From Humitalea rosea (GTDB lineage Bacteria; Pseudomonadota; Alphaproteobacteria; Acetobacterales; Acetobacteraceae): a stretch of 64,000 nucleotides of DNA. Below, in pieces: positions 1 to 9,578 of the stretch; the stretch's first letter is position 1; each line of letters opens with the position of its first letter. The notes beneath the pieces are model-generated. The model ran no database searches. It was given only the letters and a program-made list of their open reading frames with translations, and was not told the DNA's origin. Made by a program: the position numbers and the translations under genes. The stretch covers positions 1 through 64,000 of the forward strand of contig NZ_QKYU01000003.1 in the NCBI RefSeq assembly GCF_003253705.1, read 5' to 3'.

Positions 1-24
1 AAAACCATCCCGACACCGCCGCCG

Positions 25-56
25 CGCCGTGATCCTGGCATGCCAGGATCACGGCG
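25..56. repeat. 32-bp perfect palindrome upstream of the molybdenum hydroxylase gene
   Basis: Two 16-base arms meet with no spacer, centred between bases 40 and 41, and every position is complementary. The right arm ends 39 bases before the hydroxylase start codon. There is no T-run after it, so it is not a typical intrinsic terminator. It could be a dimeric regulator's operator, a terminator-like hairpin for a gene left of the window, or a cruciform site. The palindrome is read directly from the bases; the role is inference. Confidence 0.6.
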
Positions 57-95
57 TCAGGCACTGCAGAAGCAGCATCTGAACGGTAGGGCAGC

Positions 96-2780
96 ATGAC
101 CGCGGTGGTTCACCCGCCGGTCAGCCTGACCGTGAATGGCATCGGCGCCTTGGTGCTCGCCCCGCCCCAGACCCGGCTGAGCGAGGCCCTGCGCCACCAC
201 CTCGGCCTGACCGGCACCAAGGTGGGGTGCGATGCCGGCGATTGCGGCGCCTGCACCGTGCTGCTGGATGGCGCCCAGGCCTGCGCCTGCCTGGTGCCGC
301 TGGGCCAGGCCGAGGGGAGCGAGGTGATGACGGTGGAGGGGCTCGCCGCGGATCCGCTGGGGGCTGCGTTGCAACGCGCCTTCCACCACCATGGGGCCGC
401 GCAATGCGGGATCTGCACGCCGGGGATGCTGATGGCCGCCCGTGAGCTGCTGGCGCGGGAGCCCACCCCCGATGCGGCAATGGTGGAGGCCGCACTCGGC
501 GGGGTGCTCTGCCGCTGCACCGGCTACCTCAAGATCATCGAGGCGGTGAGGGACGCGCCCCGATTCCGTGACATGCGCGCCGCGCCGCCCCCCGAGCCCG
601 GTGCCGCCGTGGGCGCCCGCCTGCCGCGGCTGGATGGGCGCGAAAAGCTGGACGGCACCGAGCGCTACGGCGCCGATGCCTTCCCTGTGGATACGCTCTG
701 GCTGCGGGCCGTGCGCTCGCCGCATGCGCATGCGCGCTTCACCTTTGGCGATCTGGCGGCGTTCCAGGCGGCGCGGCCCGGGCTGGTCGCGGTGCTGACG
801 GCGGCGGATGTGCCGGGCGAGAACGGCTTCGGCATTTACCCCGACATGAAGGACCAGGCGGTGTTCGCCGAGGGGCTGGTGCGCTATCGCGGCGATGTCG
901 TCTGCGCCCTGGTCGGATCGCGGGCGGCGGTCGCGGAGCTGGACGGGCTGCCCATCACCTGGGAGGTCTTGCCGCCCCAGACCGATCCCGTCGCAGCACT
1001 GGCCGGCCCGCCGCTGCACGAACGCTGGCCCGACAATGTCCTGTCCGAAGGGCGCATGGTCTGCGGCGAGGCCGCCCTCTCCGGCACGCATCAGGCCGCG
1101 GGCGCGTGGGAAACCGGCTTCGTCGAGCACGCCTATATCGAACCCGAGGCCGGCTTCGCCCGCCGCGTCGGCGACAGCATCGAGGTCACCGCCTGCACCC
1201 AGGCGCCGGGGATGGATCGCGATGAGGTCGCCCGCGTCCTCGGCCTGCCGCTGGCGCAGGTGCGGATCATCCCTTCCGCCTGTGGCGGCGGCTTTGGCGG
1301 CAAGCTGGACGTGTCGCTGCAACCCATGATCGCGGTGGCGGCCTGGCGGCTCAACCGGCCGGTCGCCTGCGTCTTCCCGCGTGGCGAGAGCATGGCCTCC
1401 AGCACCAAGCGCCACCCGGCGCGGATCACGGCCAGCGCCGGCTGCGACGCGGAGGGGCGCCTCACCGCCTTTCATTTCGATGGCATCTACGAGACCGGCG
1501 CCTATTCCTCCTGGGGGCCGACCGTCGCGGGGCGGGTGCCGGTGCATGCCATGGGGCCGTATCGCGTGCCGCATGTGCGCGCCCGGGCGCGGGCGGTGCT
1601 GACCAACCACCCCCCCGCCGGCGCGTTCCGGGGGTTTGGCGTGCCCCAGGCGGCGATCGCGCAGGAGGCGCTGTGGGACCAGCTTGCCGATGCCGCCGGG
1701 CTCGACCGGCTGGAGTTCCGCGCCCGCAACGCGCTGCGCCCCGGCGATACCATCGCCTCGGGCCAGGTGCTGGGGCCATCGGTCGGGCTGGTGGAATGCC
1801 TCGATGCGCTGCGGCCGCATTGGCTGGCGGCGCGGGCGGAGGCGGCGAGCCTTGGCGATCGCGGTGCCTTGCGGCGCGGGGTCGGGATCGCCTGCATGTG
1901 GTACGGCATCGGCAATACCGGCATGTCCAACCCCTCGACCATGCGGATCGAGCTTTCGGCCGCGGGGCTGCTGTTCCGCAATGGCGCGGTGGACATCGGC
2001 CAGGGCAGCACCACGGTGCTGGCGCAGATCGCCGCCGATGCGCTGGGGCTGCCGGTCACCGATCTGCGCTTCGTCATCGGCGACACCGCGCTGACGCCGG
2101 ATGCCGGCAAGACCAGCGCCAGCCGCCAGACCTTTGTGAGTGGCCGTGCCGCCATGGAAGCCGCGCTGGATCTGCGGGCAAAGATCCTGCGCCTGACCAA
2201 TGCCGGGCCGGAGGCGCGGCTGCGCCTCGATGGCGCGACGCTCTGGGCCGATGCCACCGCCCTCGACCTGCGCGGCCTGACCCTGGCGGGCGAGGGGCGG
2301 TTCGACCCGCCGACCGTGGCCCTGGATGCGGATGGTCAGGGGGTGCCCTATGCCTGCTACGGTTTCGCCGCGCAGATGGCGGTGCTGGATGTGGATACCG
2401 ACCTCGGCACCGTGCATCTGCGGCACATCGTGGCCGCGCATGACGTCGGCCGCGCGGTGAACCCGACCTTGGTCGAGGGCCAGATCCATGGCGGCATTGC
2501 CCAGGGGATCGGGCTCGCGCTGATGGAGGAATTCTTGCCGGGACGCACCGAAAATCTGCACGACTACCTCATCCCCTCGATGGGCGATGTGCCGCCGATC
2601 ACGACCATCCTGATCGAGACGCCGGAACCGCTCGGCCCCTATGGCGCCAAGGGCGTCGGCGAGCCGGCGCTGGTGGCGACGGCACCGGCGATCCTCTCCG
2701 CGATCCGCGATGCGACGGGGGTGGTGATCCGCCGCGTGCCTGCCTTGCCGCATCGTGTCCTGGCAGCACTCCATGGCTGA
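96..2780 (+). CDS. Fused [2Fe-2S] / molybdopterin-binding hydroxylase (xanthine dehydrogenase family)
   Basis: The 894-residue protein joins two xanthine-oxidase-family modules. Residues 1-160 are the small iron-sulfur subunit, with plant-type cluster cysteines C45, C50, C53 and C63/C65 and the second cluster C104, C107, C139, C141. Residues from about 170 to the end form the molybdenum subunit, with GGGFGGK near 397-403, AFRGFG, and the catalytic Glu at about 856 in GVGEP. No FAD domain is present, so electrons must go to a separate partner. Such enzymes hydroxylate N-heterocycles or aldehydes with water. The next gene resembles 6-hydroxynicotinate reductase, so a nicotinate-like ring is a reasonable substrate guess. 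It overlaps that gene by 8 bases. Confidence 0.9.
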   Translation: MTAVVHPPVSLTVNGIGALVLAPPQTRLSEALRHHLGLTGTKVGCDAGDCGACTVLLDGAQACACLVPLGQAEGSEVMTVEGLAADPLGAALQRAFHHHGAAQCGICTPGMLMAARELLAREPTPDAAMVEAALGGVLCRCTGYLKIIEAVRDAPRFRDMRAAPPPEPGAAVGARLPRLDGREKLDGTERYGADAFPVDTLWLRAVRSPHAHARFTFGDLAAFQAARPGLVAVLTAADVPGENGFGIYPDMKDQAVFAEGLVRYRGDVVCALVGSRAAVAELDGLPITWEVLPPQTDPVAALAGPPLHERWPDNVLSEGRMVCGEAALSGTHQAAGAWETGFVEHAYIEPEAGFARRVGDSIEVTACTQAPGMDRDEVARVLGLPLAQVRIIPSACGGGFGGKLDVSLQPMIAVAAWRLNRPVACVFPRGESMASSTKRHPARITASAGCDAEGRLTAFHFDGIYETGAYSSWGPTVAGRVPVHAMGPYRVPHVRARARAVLTNHPPAGAFRGFGVPQAAIAQEALWDQLADAAGLDRLEFRARNALRPGDTIASGQVLGPSVGLVECLDALRPHWLAARAEAASLGDRGALRRGVGIACMWYGIGNTGMSNPSTMRIELSAAGLLFRNGAVDIGQGSTTVLAQIAADALGLPVTDLRFVIGDTALTPDAGKTSASRQTFVSGRAAMEAALDLRAKILRLTNAGPEARLRLDGATLWADATALDLRGLTLAGEGRFDPPTVALDADGQGVPYACYGFAAQMAVLDVDTDLGTVHLRHIVAAHDVGRAVNPTLVEGQIHGGIAQGIGLALMEEFLPGRTENLHDYLIPSMGDVPPITTILIETPEPLGPYGAKGVGEPALVATAPAILSAIRDATGVVIRRVPALPHRVLAALHG

Positions 2781-4248
2781 CCGCACCACCCAGTTCGGCG
2801 CCCGCGAGGCCGATGGCATCGTCCGCTGCGATGCCTGCCCGGTGCTCTGCCGCATCCGGCCGGGTCGTGCCGGGGCCTGCCAGCGCTATGCGAACCGCGA
2901 CGGCGAATTGGTGCGGACCGATCCGCTCGTGCTGATCGAGCGCACGGCCGAGGCCGGGGGCGCCGTCGTGCCCTTCCTCGACACTGACGACTGGGATGGT
3001 TCGGCGCTGCGCCCCGCGGATACCTTCGTGACCGCGATCGGCGCCGGCACCACCTATCCCGACTACAAGCCCGCGCCCTTCATCGTCGGCAGCCGGCACG
3101 CCGGGGTGGACACGGTCACCGTCGTCACCGAGGGCATCTTTTCGTATTGCGGGCTGAAGGTGAAGCTGGATACCGACCGCCACCTCGGCCACGAGACCGC
3201 GGCGGTGCGCGTCGATGGCGAGCAGATCGGCCATGTCACCACCGCCGAATACGGCAGCCAGATGCTCTCGCTTGGCGGGGTGCGGCATCTGACGGGTGGC
3301 TCCAAGCGCGAAGGGGCAGTGACCTGTCGCAGCATGTTGACCCTGTGCAACCGCGGTGCGGTCGAGGTCGAGATCGACGGCGGCTCCCGCGTGATCTTGC
3401 AGGCCGGGACTGCACCGATCGTGAACGGCGTCGCCGAGACCCGGATGCGCGTCGGCTGCGGCAGCGCCACCATCGGCATCTTCGCCCAGCAATGGTTCGG
3501 CCATGCCGATGAGGTCATCGTGCTCGACGACCACATCACGGGTGTGCTTTCGGAACACCAGGCGGGCAAGACGCTCGGCATGCGCCCGGCCGGCATCCGC
3601 GTGCGCGGGCGGCGCTCGACGCCGGGGCGCTATTTCCAGGTCGCCGAGCCCGGCGTGGGCTGGGGTGGCACCGCCATCACCGATCCGCTCTCGGTGATCG
3701 AGAGCATCGATCCTGCCTTGGCCTGGCCGGGGCTGCGTTTGTTGCTGACAAGCACGACGGGGGAGGACGCGCTCTGGGTCGAGTTGGACGAGGCGTTGCG
3801 CCCGGTTCCTGCGCCGATGCCGGCCATGGTGCGCCAGGTGGTCGATCGGATCGGGGAGAATTGCGAACCGGCGCTGACCTCCATCCTGTTCATGGCCGGC
3901 GCCGGCGGCTCGCTGCGCGCCGGGGTCACCAGCAACCCCGTGCTGCTGACGCGTCAGGTGCAGGAGGAGGCGGTGCGCGTGACCATGGGGGGCGCGCCCT
4001 GCATGCTCTGGCCGGGGGGCGGGATCACGCTGATGGTCGATGTGATGCGGTTGCCGACCGACGCCTTCGGCTCGGTGCCGACGCCGGCGCTGGTGGCGCC
4101 CATCGAATTCACCATGCGGCGCGAGGTCTTTGTGGCCCTCGGCGGGCATGATGATCAGGTGGTGCCGATCGAGCGGGTGATCGCGAATTACGGCGGCTCT
4201 GCCCGCCGCGCGCGTACCAACACCAACCCCTGGCCGGATGCGCCGTGA
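2773..4248 (+). CDS. 6-hydroxynicotinate reductase homologue
   Basis: The product has 491 residues from the ATG at 2773 (an ATG at 2755 is possible). It matches what I recall of the 6-hydroxynicotinate reductase family, which reduces the ring to 1,4,5,6-tetrahydro-6-oxonicotinate in reductive nicotinate breakdown. An N-terminal C19-x2-C22-x3-C26-x9-C36 motif looks like a [4Fe-4S] site. More cysteines are scattered through the body, and the C-terminal part has glycine-rich stretches. The start lies inside the hydroxylase gene and the end overlaps the UPF0280 start as GTGA, so the three are very likely co-translated. The hydroxylase would supply the hydroxylated ring that this enzyme reduces. 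The true substrate may be another heterocycle. Confidence 0.78.
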   Translation: MADRTTQFGAREADGIVRCDACPVLCRIRPGRAGACQRYANRDGELVRTDPLVLIERTAEAGGAVVPFLDTDDWDGSALRPADTFVTAIGAGTTYPDYKPAPFIVGSRHAGVDTVTVVTEGIFSYCGLKVKLDTDRHLGHETAAVRVDGEQIGHVTTAEYGSQMLSLGGVRHLTGGSKREGAVTCRSMLTLCNRGAVEVEIDGGSRVILQAGTAPIVNGVAETRMRVGCGSATIGIFAQQWFGHADEVIVLDDHITGVLSEHQAGKTLGMRPAGIRVRGRRSTPGRYFQVAEPGVGWGGTAITDPLSVIESIDPALAWPGLRLLLTSTTGEDALWVELDEALRPVPAPMPAMVRQVVDRIGENCEPALTSILFMAGAGGSLRAGVTSNPVLLTRQVQEEAVRVTMGGAPCMLWPGGGITLMVDVMRLPTDAFGSVPTPALVAPIEFTMRREVFVALGGHDDQVVPIERVIANYGGSARRARTNTNPWPDAP

Positions 4249-5057
4249 CAGCGGCGCTGTTGCCGGATGGACGACTGCATCTGCAAGACGGTCCGATCGA
4301 CCTGATCATCGCGGCCCATGGCGACGACCGCGCCCTGCCGGCGGCGGCGGCCGCATTCCGAGGGCTGCTGGCCGGGTTGGCGGCCGAACTGCCGGGGCTG
4401 CGCGCGCCGGTCGGGACGGTGGCGCTGACCCATCCGGTGGCGCTGCGGATGGTGGCCGCGTGCCTGCCGCATGCGGAAGCCTTCATCACGCCGATGGCGG
4501 CGGTGGCCGGGGCGGTCGCGGATCATATCCTGGCGGCGATGGTCACGGCCGCACCCGGGCTGCGCCGGGCCTGGGTGAACAATGGCGGCGACATCGCGCT
4601 GCACCTCGCGCCCGGCGAAGTCTTTCGCGTGGGGCTGGTGCCGGAGCTTGCGGTGGACGGGCAGGCGGTCATCGTCGCGGCCGATCCGGTGCGCGGCATC
4701 GCCACCAGCGGCTGGCCGGGGCGAAGTTTTTCTCTTGGCATCGCCGATGCGGTGACGGTGCTCGCGGGGAATGCGGCGGCCGCGGATGCGGCCGCGACCA
4801 TGATCGCCAATGCGGTGGATGCGGAGCACCCCGCGATCCAGCGCGAGGCCGCCGAGATGCTTGATCCAGACAGCGATCTTGGCGCGCGGCTGGTGACGGT
4901 TGCGGTCGGGCCGCTGCCGGAAGCCCTGGTCGCCGATGCCTTGGCCCAGGGCCTCGCCGAAGCCGAAACCCTGCGCGGCCGTGGCCTGATCCTTGGCGCG
5001 CTGCTGCGCTGCCAGGGGCAGCAGGTCGCGACCGGGGCCGGCTACAGGCTCAGATAG
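4245..5057 (+). CDS. UPF0280 family protein (ApbE-like fold)
   Basis: The 270-residue protein starts at a GTG overlapping the previous stop. It has the features of UPF0280, a family related to ApbE flavin transferases: an early strand with DGPIDLIIAAHGD, a central NNGGDIALHL segment, and a TSGWPGRSFSLGIADAVTVLA stretch ahead of an AAAADAAATMIANAV helix. ApbE proteins attach FMN covalently to target proteins. A matching role as a cofactor-maturation partner of the reductase encoded just upstream is plausible but unproven. The 3' end overlaps the convergent livF stop by 16 bases. Confidence 0.8.
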   Translation: MTAALLPDGRLHLQDGPIDLIIAAHGDDRALPAAAAAFRGLLAGLAAELPGLRAPVGTVALTHPVALRMVAACLPHAEAFITPMAAVAGAVADHILAAMVTAAPGLRRAWVNNGGDIALHLAPGEVFRVGLVPELAVDGQAVIVAADPVRGIATSGWPGRSFSLGIADAVTVLAGNAAAADAAATMIANAVDAEHPAIQREAAEMLDPDSDLGARLVTVAVGPLPEALVADALAQGLAEAETLRGRGLILGALLRCQGQQVATGAGYRLR

Positions 5058-5743
5058 CGCTGCCGCACCTCATCCGCCGCATCCAGCGCCGCCATGCTCC
5101 CGGTCCAGCGCACCCGCCCCGTCTCGATCACCACGGCGCGATCCGCGACCAGCCCGGCGAAATGCAGATTCTGTTCGGCCAGCAGGATCGACAGCCCGCC
5201 GGCCTTGATCGCCCCGATCGCCGCCGCCATGCGTTCCACGATCACCGGCGCCAGGCCTTCGGAGGGTTCGTCCAGCAGCAGCAGCTTCGGATTGCCCATC
5301 AGGGTGCGGGCGATGGTCAGCATCTGCTGTTCACCGCCGCTCATGCGGCCGCCCGGGCGCTTGCGCATGGCGGCGAGGTTGGGGAAGAGCGCGAACAGCC
5401 GCTCGGGCGTCCAGGGCTGCATCCCCGCCGGCGCCGCGCGGCGGCCGACGGCAAGGTTCTCATCCACCGTCAGATCCGCGAATATCCGGCGCTCCTCGGG
5501 CACGTAGCCGATGCCGGCGCGGGCGATGGCATAGGGGGGGGCGCCGGCCAAATCCTGGCCGAGGAAGGTGACGCGGCCGGCGCTCGGGCGCACCAGCCCC
5601 ATGATGGTCTTCATGGTCGTGCTCTTGCCCGCGCCATTGCGGCCGAGCAGCACCGCGACCTCCCCGGCCGCGACCGAGAAGCCGACATCCTCCAGGATAT
5701 GCGCGCGGCCATAATGCGCGGAGAGGCCCGAGACCTCCAGCAT
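5042..5743 (-). CDS. livF: Branched-chain amino acid-type ABC transporter ATP-binding protein (LivF-like)
   Basis: This is a 233-residue ATPase. Walker A is GRNGAGKST near the N-terminus, the signature is MSGGEQQM, and Walker B is LLLLDEP followed by SEGLAP, the usual LivF pattern. The ATG at 5743 overlaps the livG stop as ATGA, and the length fits LivF. A longer upstream open frame is only livG sequence in another frame. It is the last gene of a four-gene leftward operon: binding protein, fused permease, livG, livF. The operon converges on the heterocycle catabolic genes, so the transporter may import their substrate. Confidence 0.9.
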   Translation of the reverse strand: MLEVSGLSAHYGRAHILEDVGFSVAAGEVAVLLGRNGAGKSTTMKTIMGLVRPSAGRVTFLGQDLAGAPPYAIARAGIGYVPEERRIFADLTVDENLAVGRRAAPAGMQPWTPERLFALFPNLAAMRKRPGGRMSGGEQQMLTIARTLMGNPKLLLLDEPSEGLAPVIVERMAAAIGAIKAGGLSILLAEQNLHFAGLVADRAVVIETGRVRWTGSMAALDAADEVRQRYLSL

Positions 5744-6501
5744 CAATGCCCCCCCGCCGTGGCGCCGGTGCCGAGATAGACCTCCCGCACCCGTGGATCG
5801 GCGCGGACCTCCTGCGGCGCGCCCTCGGCGATCAACTGGCCGCGATCCAGCACGATGATGCGGTCGGCATGGGCGAAGACGACATCCATGTCGTGTTCGG
5901 TGAAGAGCACGCCAATGCCGCCCTCCTTGGCCAGCCGCGCGGTCAGCGCCATCAGCGCGATGCGCTCGGCGGGCGCCATGCCGGCGGTGGGTTCGTCCAT
6001 CAGCAGCAGCCGGGGGGTATTGGCCAAGGCGACGGCCAGCTCCACGCGCTTGAGGTCGCCATAGGCGAGCACGCCGCAGGGGCGCGCCGCCTGTTCCAGC
6101 ATGCCGACGCGGTCGAGCAGCGCCTCGGCCTCGGCTGCCTTCTGCCCCGCCATCGGCCGCCACAGCCCGCCGAGCCCGCGCGCCTGGGACAGCAGCGCCA
6201 CCTGCACATTCTCCCGCACGCTCATGGCGCCGAAGGTCGCGGTGATCTGGAAGGTGCGCCCGACGCCGAGCCGGAAGACGTGGCGCGGCGCCATGCCCGT
6301 GATGTCCCGCCCCGCCAGCAGGACGCGCCCCGAATCCGGCCGCACCTGGCCGTTCAGCATGTTGAAGCAGGTGGATTTCCCGGCGCCATTCGGCCCGATC
6401 AGCGCCAGCACCTCGCCCGCCGCCAGGCTGAACGACACCCCCGCCACCGCCTGCACGCCGCCCCAGGATTTGGCGAGGTGTTCGACCGCGAGCACGGTCA
6501 C
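5743..6501 (-). CDS. livG: Branched-chain amino acid-type ABC transporter ATP-binding protein (LivG-like)
   Basis: This 252-residue ATPase starts at a GTG whose bases overlap the permease stop (GTGA). Walker A is GPNGAGKST, Walker B is LLLMDEPTAG, and the H-loop is TEHDMDVVF. The ABC signature region is ACGVLAYGDLKRVELA-like rather than LSGGQ, as is normal in LivG (here LAYGDLKR). It pairs with LivF on the fused membrane subunit and supplies ATP hydrolysis for uptake. Confidence 0.9.
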   Translation of the reverse strand: MTVLAVEHLAKSWGGVQAVAGVSFSLAAGEVLALIGPNGAGKSTCFNMLNGQVRPDSGRVLLAGRDITGMAPRHVFRLGVGRTFQITATFGAMSVRENVQVALLSQARGLGGLWRPMAGQKAAEAEALLDRVGMLEQAARPCGVLAYGDLKRVELAVALANTPRLLLMDEPTAGMAPAERIALMALTARLAKEGGIGVLFTEHDMDVVFAHADRIIVLDRGQLIAEGAPQEVRADPRVREVYLGTGATAGGH

Positions 6502-8348
6502 GCCCGCTTCTCCCAGGCGGCGCGCGCGGCGCCGGCCAGCCCTTGCGGGAAGAAGACCACGAGCAGGATGATCGTCGCGCCCAGCAGCAACCGCCAGTGA
6601 TCGGTCCCGCGCATGAGCTGTTCCTGCAGCCCGGTCAGCGCCACCGCGCCCAGCAGCGGCCCGGACAGCGTCTGCACGCCGCCGAGCAGCACCATCAGCA
6701 GCGCATCCACGCTGCGCGAGATGCCAAGGTAGGTCGGGAACACGCTGCCCTTGGCATAGGCGAAGACCGAGCCCGCGACGCCCGCGAAGGCCGCCGAGAT
6801 CGCGAAGGCCATCCAGCGGGTGCGAAAGGTGTCGATGCCGATCGCCTCGGCCCTGAGCGGGCTGTCGCGGCCCGCCCGCAGCGCCGCGCCGAAGGGCGCC
6901 CAGACGATCCGCCGCAACAGCATCGCCCCCCCCACGCAGAGCACCAGCGCCAGCAGATAGAACACCGGCTTGGGCTGCGCCCAGGCATCCGGCCAGACGC
7001 CGAGGATGCCATTGTCGCCGCCGGTGACCTCGACCCATTGGAAGGCGGTGCTCCAGGCGATCTGCGCGAAGGCCAGGGTCAGCATCGCCGCGTAAACGCC
7101 CGAGAGCCGCACGCAGAACCAGCCGAACACCAGCCCGAGCAGCCCGGCCGCGAAGGGGGCCAGCAGCATCCCCGCCCACATCGGCGCGGCCGCATGCTGC
7201 ACCAGCAGCGCGGCGGCATAGGCGCCGGCGCCGAAATAGGCGGCATGGCCAAAGCTCGCGAGCCCCCCCGGCCCCATGATGAAATGCAGCGAGGCGGCGA
7301 AGAGCAGCGCGACCAGGATTTCGGTCAGCACCGACAATTCGTAATCCGGCAGCACCCAGGCCGAGCCGACCAGCAGCGCCAGCACCACCGCGCCCAACTG
7401 CCGCAGCGCCCTCGGCGCCGGCAGCAGCAGCGGATCGGGGGGGCCGGAGCTGGCATGCAGACCTTGGGGCGCCCGCCCGAGCAGCCCATAGGGCCGCACC
7501 ACCAGCACCACCGCCATCACCAGGAAGACCAGCACCAGCGTGATCTTGGGCAGGATGAGGATGCCGAAGGCCGATAGCTCGCCGATCAGCAGCGCCGCCA
7601 GGAACGCGCCCGTCAGCGAACCGAGCCCCCCCACCACCACGACCACGAAGGCCTCGGTGATGGTGGAGAGGTCCATGTGCAGGTTCACGCTTTCGCGCGG
7701 CAATTGCAGCGCCCCACCCAGCCCCGCGAGCCCGGCGCCGAGGGCGAAGACCCCGGTGAAGAGCAGCGCCTGGTTCACCCCGAGGGCCGCGACCATCTCG
7801 CGATCCGCGGTCGCCGCCCGCACCAGCACGCCGAAGCGGGTGCGATGGAACAGCAGCCACAGCCCCGCCAGCACCAGCGGCCCGACGGCGATGAGGAACA
7901 GTTCGTACAGCGGAAACCGCAGCCCCAGGATACGCACCGCCCCGCGCAGCATCGGTGCCCGTGGCCCCAGCAGATCCTGCGCGCCCCAGGCCCAGAGCGC
8001 GACATCCTGCACCACCAGCACCACGCCGAAGGTCGCCAGCAACTGGAACAGTTCCGGCGCGCGGTAGATGCGCCGCAGCAGCAGCACCTCGATCACCGCG
8101 CCGATCGCGGCGGTCACCACCGCGGCACCCAGTATGCCGCCCCAGAACTGCCAGAACGGCCCGGCGAAGGCGAAGACGCCGTGGGTCACCAGGCTCCAGG
8201 CGACATAGGCGCCCAGCATGTACAGGCTGCCATGGGCGAAGTTGACGACCCGGGTGACGCCGAAGATCACCGTCAGCCCGGAGGCGACCAGGAAGAGCGA
8301 GGAGGCCGAGGCCAGCCCGCTCAGCGCCTGGACGACAAGATCATCCAT
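6498..8348 (-). CDS. Fused LivH-LivM branched-chain amino acid-type ABC permease
   Basis: The 616-residue membrane protein has a LivH-like half (about 1-290, opening with the VNFAHGSLYMLGAY motif) and a LivM-like half (about 315-610, with GLASFGHAAYFGAGAY). They are joined by a short hydrophilic Gly/Pro-rich linker near 290-310. LivH and LivM are usually separate, so one chain here makes the whole pore. It lies between the binding protein (18-base gap) and livG (overlap). Each half has about eight hydrophobic segments. The solute is unknown; the facing hydroxylase/reductase genes suggest an aromatic or heterocyclic acid. Confidence 0.9.
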   Translation of the reverse strand: MDDLVVQALSGLASASSLFLVASGLTVIFGVTRVVNFAHGSLYMLGAYVAWSLVTHGVFAFAGPFWQFWGGILGAAVVTAAIGAVIEVLLLRRIYRAPELFQLLATFGVVLVVQDVALWAWGAQDLLGPRAPMLRGAVRILGLRFPLYELFLIAVGPLVLAGLWLLFHRTRFGVLVRAATADREMVAALGVNQALLFTGVFALGAGLAGLGGALQLPRESVNLHMDLSTITEAFVVVVVGGLGSLTGAFLAALLIGELSAFGILILPKITLVLVFLVMAVVLVVRPYGLLGRAPQGLHASSGPPDPLLLPAPRALRQLGAVVLALLVGSAWVLPDYELSVLTEILVALLFAASLHFIMGPGGLASFGHAAYFGAGAYAAALLVQHAAAPMWAGMLLAPFAAGLLGLVFGWFCVRLSGVYAAMLTLAFAQIAWSTAFQWVEVTGGDNGILGVWPDAWAQPKPVFYLLALVLCVGGAMLLRRIVWAPFGAALRAGRDSPLRAEAIGIDTFRTRWMAFAISAAFAGVAGSVFAYAKGSVFPTYLGISRSVDALLMVLLGGVQTLSGPLLGAVALTGLQEQLMRGTDHWRLLLGATIILLVVFFPQGLAGAARAAWEKRA

Positions 8349-8366: not shown

Positions 8367-9578
8367 TCAGACGGGCGCCGTCCGCAGCGTCCGCACCACC
8401 TCGTCGGTGGGGAAATACTTGGCGCCATCGGCGTAGCGCCAATCGGTCATGGTGCCGCGGCCATTGCGCAGCGCGGTCTTGCCGACGAAGGCGCCCAGCG
8501 TGGACTGATGGTCGATCGCGCGGAAGGTGACATCGCCGGTGCCGAAGCTGGTCGGGAAGGTCAGGCCGCGGAAGGTCGCGATCAGCGCCTCGGTCTCGAT
8601 CGCGCTGGTCTTGCGCAGCGCGGCCGCGATCGCCGTCACCGTATCCCGCGCCACCACCGAGCCGAGCTTGGGATCGGCATTCCACCGCGCCTTGTAGGCG
8701 GCGCGGAAGGCGGTGTGGGTGGGGTTGTCGATCTGCTCCCAGGGGTAGCCGGTGACGATCCAGCCCTCCGGCGCCTCATCGCCCAGGGGCTCCAGGTATT
8801 CCGGCTCGCCGGTCAGCACCGAGACGACGCTGCGGTGCTCGAACAGCCCACGGGTATTGCCCTGGCGGACGAAGTTGGTGAGGTCGGCGCCGAAGGTGAC
8901 GTTGAAGATCGCCTCCGGCCGCGCGCCCGCCAGCGCCTGCACCGTCGCACCTGCATCGATGCGGCCGAGGGCGGGGAACTGCTCCGCGACGAATTCCACA
9001 TCGGGCTTGGCGCGGGTCAGCAGCTCCTTGAACCAGCGCACCGAGGACTGGCCGTATTCGTAGTTCGGCGCGACCATGGCCCAGCGCCTGGCGGGCAGCT
9101 TGGCCGCCTCCTCCACCAGCATGGCGCATTGCATGTAGGTCGAGGGCCGCAGGCGGAAGGTGTAGCGATTGCCCCGCGCCCAGACCAAGGCATCGGTCAG
9201 CGGCTCGGAGGCGATGTAGAGCTTGCGGTTCTGGTTGGCGAAATCGCCGAGCGCCAGGCCGATGTTGGACAGGAAGCCACCGGCCAGCAGATCGACCTTC
9301 TCATTGTTGATCAGCTCGCCGGCATGGCGCACGGCGTCCTCGGGCTTGCCGCCATCGTCGCGGAAGATGGTCTCCAGCGGGCGGCCGTTGATGCCGCCGG
9401 CGGCGTTGATCTGCTCGACGGCCAGGATCCAGGAATTGCGGTAGGGCGCGAGGAAGGCGGGCTGGGAGGTGTAGGAATTGACCTCGCCGATCTTGATCGG
9501 CGCTCCGGCCTGCGCGCGCGCCAGCATCGGTGCTGCCAGCACCCCGGTCATCACCACACGTCGCGAAACACCGCTCAT
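8367..9578 (-). CDS. ABC transporter substrate-binding protein, Tat-type signal (LivK/Peripla_BP_6-like)
   Basis: The 403-residue protein begins at the ATG at 9578, with an AGGAGG-type ribosome site just upstream. The N-terminus carries SRRVVMTG, a twin-arginine export signal, then a hydrophobic stretch and a likely cleavage site after ARAQA. The mature part starts IKIGEVNSYTS and follows the periplasmic type-I binding fold of Liv-family receptors. It is first in the transporter operon. Tat export of a Liv receptor is common in proteobacterial paralogues that bind aromatic or carboxylic acids, which suits the neighbouring catabolic genes. The ligand cannot be read from the sequence. Confidence 0.88.
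   Translation of the reverse strand: MSGVSRRVVMTGVLAAPMLARAQAGAPIKIGEVNSYTSQPAFLAPYRNSWILAVEQINAAGGINGRPLETIFRDDGGKPEDAVRHAGELINNEKVDLLAGGFLSNIGLALGDFANQNRKLYIASEPLTDALVWARGNRYTFRLRPSTYMQCAMLVEEAAKLPARRWAMVAPNYEYGQSSVRWFKELLTRAKPDVEFVAEQFPALGRIDAGATVQALAGARPEAIFNVTFGADLTNFVRQGNTRGLFEHRSVVSVLTGEPEYLEPLGDEAPEGWIVTGYPWEQIDNPTHTAFRAAYKARWNADPKLGSVVARDTVTAIAAALRKTSAIETEALIATFRGLTFPTSFGTGDVTFRAIDHQSTLGAFVGKTALRNGRGTMTDWRYADGAKYFPTDEVVRTLRTAPV

Follow-up and report, generated by a model that had tools for sequence, protein, structure and literature searches.

The first 64,000 nucleotides of Humitalea rosea contig NZ_QKYU01000003.1, here called the window, open on a compact unit of three overlapping genes. 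The unit encodes a molybdenum hydroxylase, a homologue of 6-hydroxynicotinate reductase and a UPF0280 protein, all on the plus strand between positions 96 and 5057. We determined its gene anatomy, protein families, synteny, contig-edge repeats, co-occurrence and predicted fold by computation. Gene clusters of this kind are known. The unit probably forms one half, hydroxylase and reductase, of an operon for reductive nicotinate degradation; this operon would also carry UPF0280 as a proposed maturation factor, and it appears to have been interrupted by an IS110-type insertion sequence. New here are the co-occurrence of UPF0280 with the reductase and its predicted ApbE flavin-transferase fold. 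The three genes are as follows.

96-2780, plus strand: fused subunit with two [2Fe-2S] parts and a molybdopterin part, from a xanthine-oxidase-family, nicotinate-dehydrogenase-like hydroxylase (894 residues; by Pfam and the Protein Data Bank, PDB)

2773-4248, plus strand: 6-hydroxynicotinate reductase homologue, probable iron-sulfur protein (491 residues from the ATG at 2773)

4245-5057, plus strand: UPF0280 protein with an ApbE-like fold, proposed reductase maturation factor for flavin attachment (270 residues; NF003322)

The gene anatomy is that of one overlapping unit, as the original prediction had claimed. Genes 1 and 2 overlap by 8 bp (ATGGCTGA) and genes 2 and 3 by 4 bp (GTGA); all three have a third-codon-position GC of 0.83-0.88 and no internal stops. 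The reductase is read from the ATG at 2773, with a GTG at 2755 as the alternative start in the list of open reading frames. The claimed fusion of iron-sulfur and molybdenum domains in one chain was likewise found: Pfam places Fer2, Fer2_2, Ald_Xan_dh_C, MoCoBD_1 and MoCoBD_2 in that order along the protein, which assigns it to the xanthine oxidase family, and an NCBIfam search reached no equivalog cut-off. Among solved structures, the fused protein matches nicotinate dehydrogenase of Eubacterium barkeri best when bits are summed over separate subunits (PDB 3hrd; chains A 242, B 215 and D 129 bits), ahead of 4-hydroxybenzoyl-CoA reductase (1rm6; A 279 and C 134 bits) and the top single chain, Desulfovibrio aldehyde oxidoreductase (1dgj; 381 bits).

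Relatives of the unit supplied the comparative evidence. Our set of 115 loci consists of the window, 32 loci taken by place from genomes, two plasmid records and 80 loci from a contig scan, the last being the best 80 of 590 relatives and all 64-80% identical. Some loci are one genome twice (L032 and L116, like L038 and L131, have identical reductases), and the 115 loci are not 115 independent genomes.

The apparent lack of an FAD subunit, which the original prediction took to be a property of this hydroxylase, is a contig-edge artefact, because window base 1 is also base 1 of its contig (C3) and relatives carry an FAD gene upstream. Searching the same genome with the relatives' FAD subunit and enamidase found two genes at the end of another contig, C24.

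C24, about 69309-70163, plus strand: FAD subunit (FAD_binding_5 and CO_deh_flav_C), the last gene of C24, 127 bases from the contig end

C24, 68048-69202, minus strand: enamidase homologue (match to PDB 2vun, E=2e-103)

The best PDB match of the FAD subunit is 3hrd_C, its counterpart in the nicotinate dehydrogenase of E. barkeri. A fused iron-sulfur-molybdenum gene occurs in 92 of the 115 loci, and in 86 of these 92 an FAD gene lies directly upstream (gap <400 bp). Five of the other six, the window included, start within about 110 bases of the molybdenum-subunit match; in the sixth (L140), an FAD gene precedes a molybdenum gene matched in two pieces. An FAD-free enzyme like the Desulfovibrio aldehyde oxidoreductase, the anatomy first proposed, would fit 1dgj as top single chain and the absence of an FAD gene from the window itself, but the edge position, the C24 gene and the arrangement of the relatives make it very improbable. 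We also rejected assignment to the FAD-free Mop-type aldehyde oxidoreductases, which would call for an operon with no FAD gene, given the C24 gene and the relatives' loci.

The two contig edges carry opposite ends of a multicopy insertion sequence.

Window 1-104, plus strand: end of a multicopy IS110-type insertion sequence (repeat at contig ends; related Rhizobium gallicum element)

C24, 70164-70290: other end of the multicopy IS110-type element (the last 127 bases of C24)

The first 102-104 bases of the window recur at six contig ends (C3, C28, C18, C38, C29 and C19), and the final 127 bases of C24 recur at six as well (C24, C19, C13, C7, C5 and C20). On a Rhizobium gallicum plasmid, a related element has both ends about 1.4 kb apart with order and orientation kept. 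That element has a PF02371 (IS116/IS110/IS902) transposase match, and one full-length match to the tail is annotated 'IS110 family transposase'. In the H. rosea genome only the ends are assembled, and the transposase matches come from related elements elsewhere.

Flanking sequences point to an insertion exactly at a gene junction. All six left flanks read GGCAGCC/TAATGG (one of them printed reversed), and the three right flanks that were read (C3, C28 and C18) all give GGGCAGC/ATGACCGC. By these flanks the element appears to have inserted at GGCAGC^ATGACC, within the overlapping stop and start (GGC AGC ATG ACC) of the FAD and molybdenum genes. Its own sequence probably stops near base 95, and bases 96-104, start codon included, would be shared target. 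The upstream protein seems to retain its C-terminal residues, closed by a TAA that the element provides, and the downstream gene seems to retain its ATG, so that both proteins would be left whole. An IS110-type element between the FAD and molybdenum genes would thus account for where the window starts. The same overlap is usual among relatives: with both frames checked, FAD stop and molybdenum start overlap as ATGA or GTGA in 67 of 86 relative pairs, and in all 13 of the near relatives listed (GGCGGC/ATGACC in L040 and GGCAGC/ATGACG in L118 are examples). Translations inspected at the R. gallicum copy place it at a similar junction, where genes for an ABC ATPase and a permease meet. IS900, a member of the IS110 family, prefers translation starts. 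Published accounts describe a CATG-containing target for IS900 (PMC8141618) and IS110-type targets set by guide RNAs (PMC11187229). On this evidence we infer that C24, the element and C3 join in that order; it counts against the join that assembled sequence does not span it.

The genes recovered on C24 support the nicotinate reading put forward in the original prediction. Genes left of the window had been named as the place to look for an enamidase; C3 offers none of that ground, starting as it does at window base 1, and the homologue was found ending C24 together with the FAD gene that it adjoins. It matches E. barkeri enamidase (2vun) over residues 1-382. A nicotinate-dehydrogenase-type hydroxylase with its FAD subunit, a reductase homologue and an enamidase are all present by homology, the makeup expected of a reductive nicotinate-degradation cluster.

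Reductase phylogeny agrees with this assignment. The nearest relatives of the window's reductase are Acetobacteraceae. We built a tree from 114 of the 115 loci (112 different sequences), dropping L185 for an internal stop. The window falls in a clade of 20 rows (SH-aLRT 100), of which 19, counting the window by way of C24, have an enamidase and one is unlabelled. A phylogeny against characterised enzymes had been suggested as a check on the nicotinate claim; the tree, drawn from our loci and not from the E. barkeri or Azorhizobium reductases themselves, places the reductase with enamidase loci and not away from them.

Plasmids carry the same kind of cluster. Relatives of gene 2, at 61-72% identity, occur in 26 records of a plasmid collection; 17 of them, 61-66% identical, are annotated as 6-hydroxynicotinate reductase. 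On a Sulfitobacter pontiacus plasmid the set is complete: amidohydrolase, ferredoxin-NADP reductase, FAD subunit, fused molybdenum protein, reductase and UPF0280, along with two 'amino acid synthesis' proteins, MarR and a Liv-type transporter. Conserved nicotinate clusters are described for Azorhizobium caulinodans and Bradyrhizobiaceae in a paper that also reports strain SG-6C to degrade nicotinate with transient 6-hydroxynicotinate, its reductase being 42% identical to that of E. barkeri (PMC3511419).

The reductase is probably an iron-sulfur protein, judging from its conserved cysteines. C19, C22, C26, C36, C229 and C364 are invariant in 114 of 114 aligned rows, C126 is present in 113 and C185 in 112. 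The protein scored over the cut-off of no Pfam or NCBIfam family and has no PDB relative by sequence, the best hit of a profile search of the PDB having E 0.49.

UPF0280 tracks the reductase almost perfectly. In 113 of the 115 loci it follows the reductase on the same strand. The two matches are no more than 700 bp apart in 110 of these; in the remaining three the distances are 778, 1532 and 4850 bp. Two genome samples gave the same picture. In a phylum sample of 398 genomes, all 32 with a reductase have UPF0280 and none of the 366 others does; in an order sample of 299, the figures are 69 of 69 and 7 of 230. An uncharacterised protein is present, then, in every reductase genome of both samples. 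Absence of either gene is meant at the sensitivity of a loose first-pass search. Weak reductase matches of about 40-45 N-terminal residues (5 of 37 genomes in the phylum sample, 5 of 74 in the order sample) were not counted, and G314 was counted as a reductase genome although its reductase matches in two pieces. Because a few genomes belong to both samples and the genomes share ancestry, the counts are not independent events.

Several cases weigh against so close a bond. One locus (L152) has a reductase without UPF0280 within 8 kb, and in another (L188) the sequence ends just after the reductase. In one order-sample genome (G253) the two genes lie on different contigs. Four genomes have a full-length UPF0280 (50-62% identical) and no reductase, and a fifth has a fragment. 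In three of the four (G151, G215 and G217) the gene sits beside several cluster-like genes and in the fourth (G234) beside Liv-type genes only; the fragment (G183) has AA_synth, Liv and a partial enamidase as neighbours.

Stretches L233, L234, L235 and L236 combine UPF0280 with other cluster-like genes and have no reductase. The last two of the seven order-sample genomes (G110 and G157; stretches L237 and L238) have a distant UPF0280 relative, in which the ApbE-like motifs are lost, next to a gene for a DAO-type FAD oxidoreductase.

The predicted structure of UPF0280 has the ApbE fold. The protein is a firm member of its family (NF003322, 342.6 bits against a curated cut-off of 290), its AlphaFold model has a pLDDT of 93.6, and by sequence it has one weakly similar solved structure, 2o34. 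In a Foldseek search with the model, 2o34 ranked first, followed by FmnB and ApbE chains at E-values starting from 6.5e-5; PDB entry 6nxj among the matches is an H257G mutant. In VIA-align the model aligned with 2o34 at Z 20.9 (25% identity) and with 1vrm, Ftp, FmnB and ApbE at Z 14.1-16.3 over about 200 residues (rmsd 3.0-3.5), the next fold after the ApbE group being urate oxidase at Z 7.9. An alignment of eight UPF0280 and three ApbE proteins shows the motifs IATSG, VTVLA and ADxxAT in common. The Asp and Thr of ADxxAT form part of the metal site of ApbE, and a His serves as its base. The 6-hydroxynicotinate reductase of E. barkeri carries a covalent flavin.

UPF0280 is best read as a maturation factor of the reductase that handles or attaches flavin, because it has the predicted fold of a flavin transferase, travels with the reductase, and the E. 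barkeri enzyme has that covalent flavin. A number of results tell against this role. Foldseek TM-scores to ApbE chains are modest (0.3-0.58), and no Pfam family, ApbE (PF02424) included, matches UPF0280 at E 0.001. The His-bearing stretch SHTxDPxT of the genome's own ApbE proteins is absent from the eight aligned UPF0280 rows, and no His is invariant across 19 rows. A profile-profile comparison of UPF0280 with ApbE gave a probability of 3%, a faulty figure, since ApbE rows L193 and L227, half of the four used, were in the wrong frame. On the acceptor side, the classic ApbE motif D-x(2,3)-[ST]GA[ST] occurs in 0 of 114 reductase rows and [ST]GA[ST] alone in four; a look-alike, GSA[ST], stands at reductase positions 230-233 in 83 of 114, position 233 being Ala in 30. 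The AlphaFold model of the reductase is only fair (pLDDT 75.6) and has no PDB fold match at E<=0.001.

The same gaps would suit a protein that is a further subunit, or an unrelated pathway enzyme with a recycled ApbE fold, and that does not handle flavin. Such a protein need have neither the His stretch nor an acceptor motif in its partner, and the few genomes that keep UPF0280 without a reductase also fit it; its near-perfect co-occurrence with the reductase, whatever the hydroxylase or ring-opening enzyme, and the retention of the ADxxAT Asp and Thr speak for the maturation factor instead. We regard a role apart from flavin as credible, if somewhat short of likely. Any chemistry of UPF0280 would differ from that of classic ApbE, because the His stretch and an invariant His are absent; as a transferase it would be a non-standard one. 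In one open literature library we found no paper on UPF0280, nor on hydroxynicotinate together with oxoprolinase. Papers there on ApbE and nicotinate were off topic as judged by title and start of abstract, and so, by title, were those on DUF375 among the matches listed.

The conserved core is paired with two alternative ring-opening modules. Within the sequence stretches available, an enamidase occurs in 39 of the 115 loci (the window by way of C24), HyuA and/or HyuB in 37, both in none and neither in 39, many of the last being cut by contig ends. The HyuAB loci, among them L038, L042, L119 and L131, surround the same hydroxylase-reductase-UPF0280 core. In L038 the pair consists of Hydantoinase_A and Hydantoinase_B by Pfam and comes nearest to the caprolactamase subunits CapA (491 bits) and CapB (302 bits), below the model cut-offs of 1000. 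Genome-wide, across the 32 genomes whose loci were taken by place, all seven with HyuAB lack a full-length enamidase and 24 of the 25 others have one. On the reductase tree the enamidase/HyuAB label changes nine times, five of these changes being forced by well supported branches, compared with about 25 changes for shuffled labels. Either one step was swapped repeatedly or the substrate changes.

A change of substrate raises the question of whether the H. rosea unit acts on nicotinate at all. The core could be a general module acting on a different N-heterocycle, with the ring-opening enzyme setting the route. The mutual exclusion of enamidase and HyuAB around one core, in loci and in genomes, speaks for this idea, and hydroxylase type varies too: the 23 of 115 loci with no fused molybdenum gene nearby count against the nicotinate reading. 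We nevertheless think another substrate unlikely here. In the H. rosea genome an enamidase adjoins the FAD gene, the reductase falls among enamidase loci, and repeated swaps are also expected if one step on the same intermediate is replaced.

Genes of a Liv-type transporter face the unit from the other strand, as the original prediction had noted. There are four of them, convergent with the unit and extending from 9578 to 5042.

5042-5743, minus strand: LivF-type ABC ATPase

5743-6501, minus strand: LivG-type ABC ATPase

6498-8348, minus strand: fused LivH-LivM permease

8367-9578, minus strand: LivK, periplasmic binding protein of the transporter (Peripla_BP_6; start placed at MSGVSRR)

LivHM or LivK matches accompany 64 of the 115 loci. 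Two further neighbours recur. A gene for an AA_synth (PF06684) protein lies at C24 67456-68034 (L089:9460-10035), and one or two copies occur in 87 of the 115 loci. A ferredoxin-NADP-reductase-like gene, a possible electron supply for the reductase, is found in 12 of 115 (L195 and 11 others).

Together these genes suggest a route from nicotinate to an open-chain product, in which we infer both the substrate and the order of reactions. The Liv-type transporter would import nicotinate, and the two-gene hydroxylase, composed of the C24 FAD subunit and the fused protein of 96-2780, would convert it to 6-hydroxynicotinate. The reductase (2773-4248) would then form 1,4,5,6-tetrahydro-6-oxonicotinate, and the C24 enamidase would open the ring to 2-formylglutarate and ammonia. 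UPF0280 would not be a pathway enzyme; it would act as the reductase's dedicated maturation factor, most likely by attaching or handling a covalent flavin. The IS110-type element would lie at the stop/start overlap between the FAD and molybdenum genes, leaving both proteins intact.

A broader proposal can be advanced tentatively. UPF0280 (DUF375) might be a new branch of flavin transferases that does without the His stretch and uses a new acceptor site for the covalent flavin of the 6-hydroxynicotinate reductase family, and the core might supply two alternative ring openers, an enamidase or a caprolactamase-like HyuAB that depends on ATP. As far as our literature searches reached, opening of a reduced pyridine ring by HyuAB is undescribed. 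We treat this joint proposal as a real possibility, still short of probable. Should UPF0280 indeed attach flavin, DUF375, a structural family so far without a function, would gain one, and production of active 6-hydroxynicotinate reductase would become practicable. The exchange of enamidase for HyuAB points to a second way of opening the ring of reduced pyridines. The locus also illustrates how a contig edge can mimic a missing subunit.

The unit is related to several known systems and departs from each. In the clusters of Azorhizobium caulinodans and Bradyrhizobiaceae, UPF0280 is neither named nor given a role in the parts of the paper available to us (PMC3511419). Gene order and hydroxylase type vary among our loci, and in H. 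rosea the operon appears to be split by an IS110-type element. The predicted fold of UPF0280 and its IATSG, VTVLA and ADxxAT motifs are like those of the ApbE, FmnB and Ftp flavin transferases; unlike them, it has neither the His stretch nor a Pfam ApbE match, and its partner reductase has no classic acceptor motif. DVU1097 (PDB 2o34, DUF375/UPF0280), a hypothetical protein in the PDB, has the same fold and a recognisably similar sequence. A biochemical parallel is the nicotinate fermentation of Eubacterium barkeri, reportedly set out by Alhapel in 2006. Its hydroxylase (3hrd) and enamidase (2vun) have homologues here by search, while the likeness of the reductases comes through the literature and public annotation only. 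The molybdenum protein of E. barkeri is made of two chains (3hrd A and B), whereas in H. rosea the iron-sulfur and molybdenum parts are fused in one.

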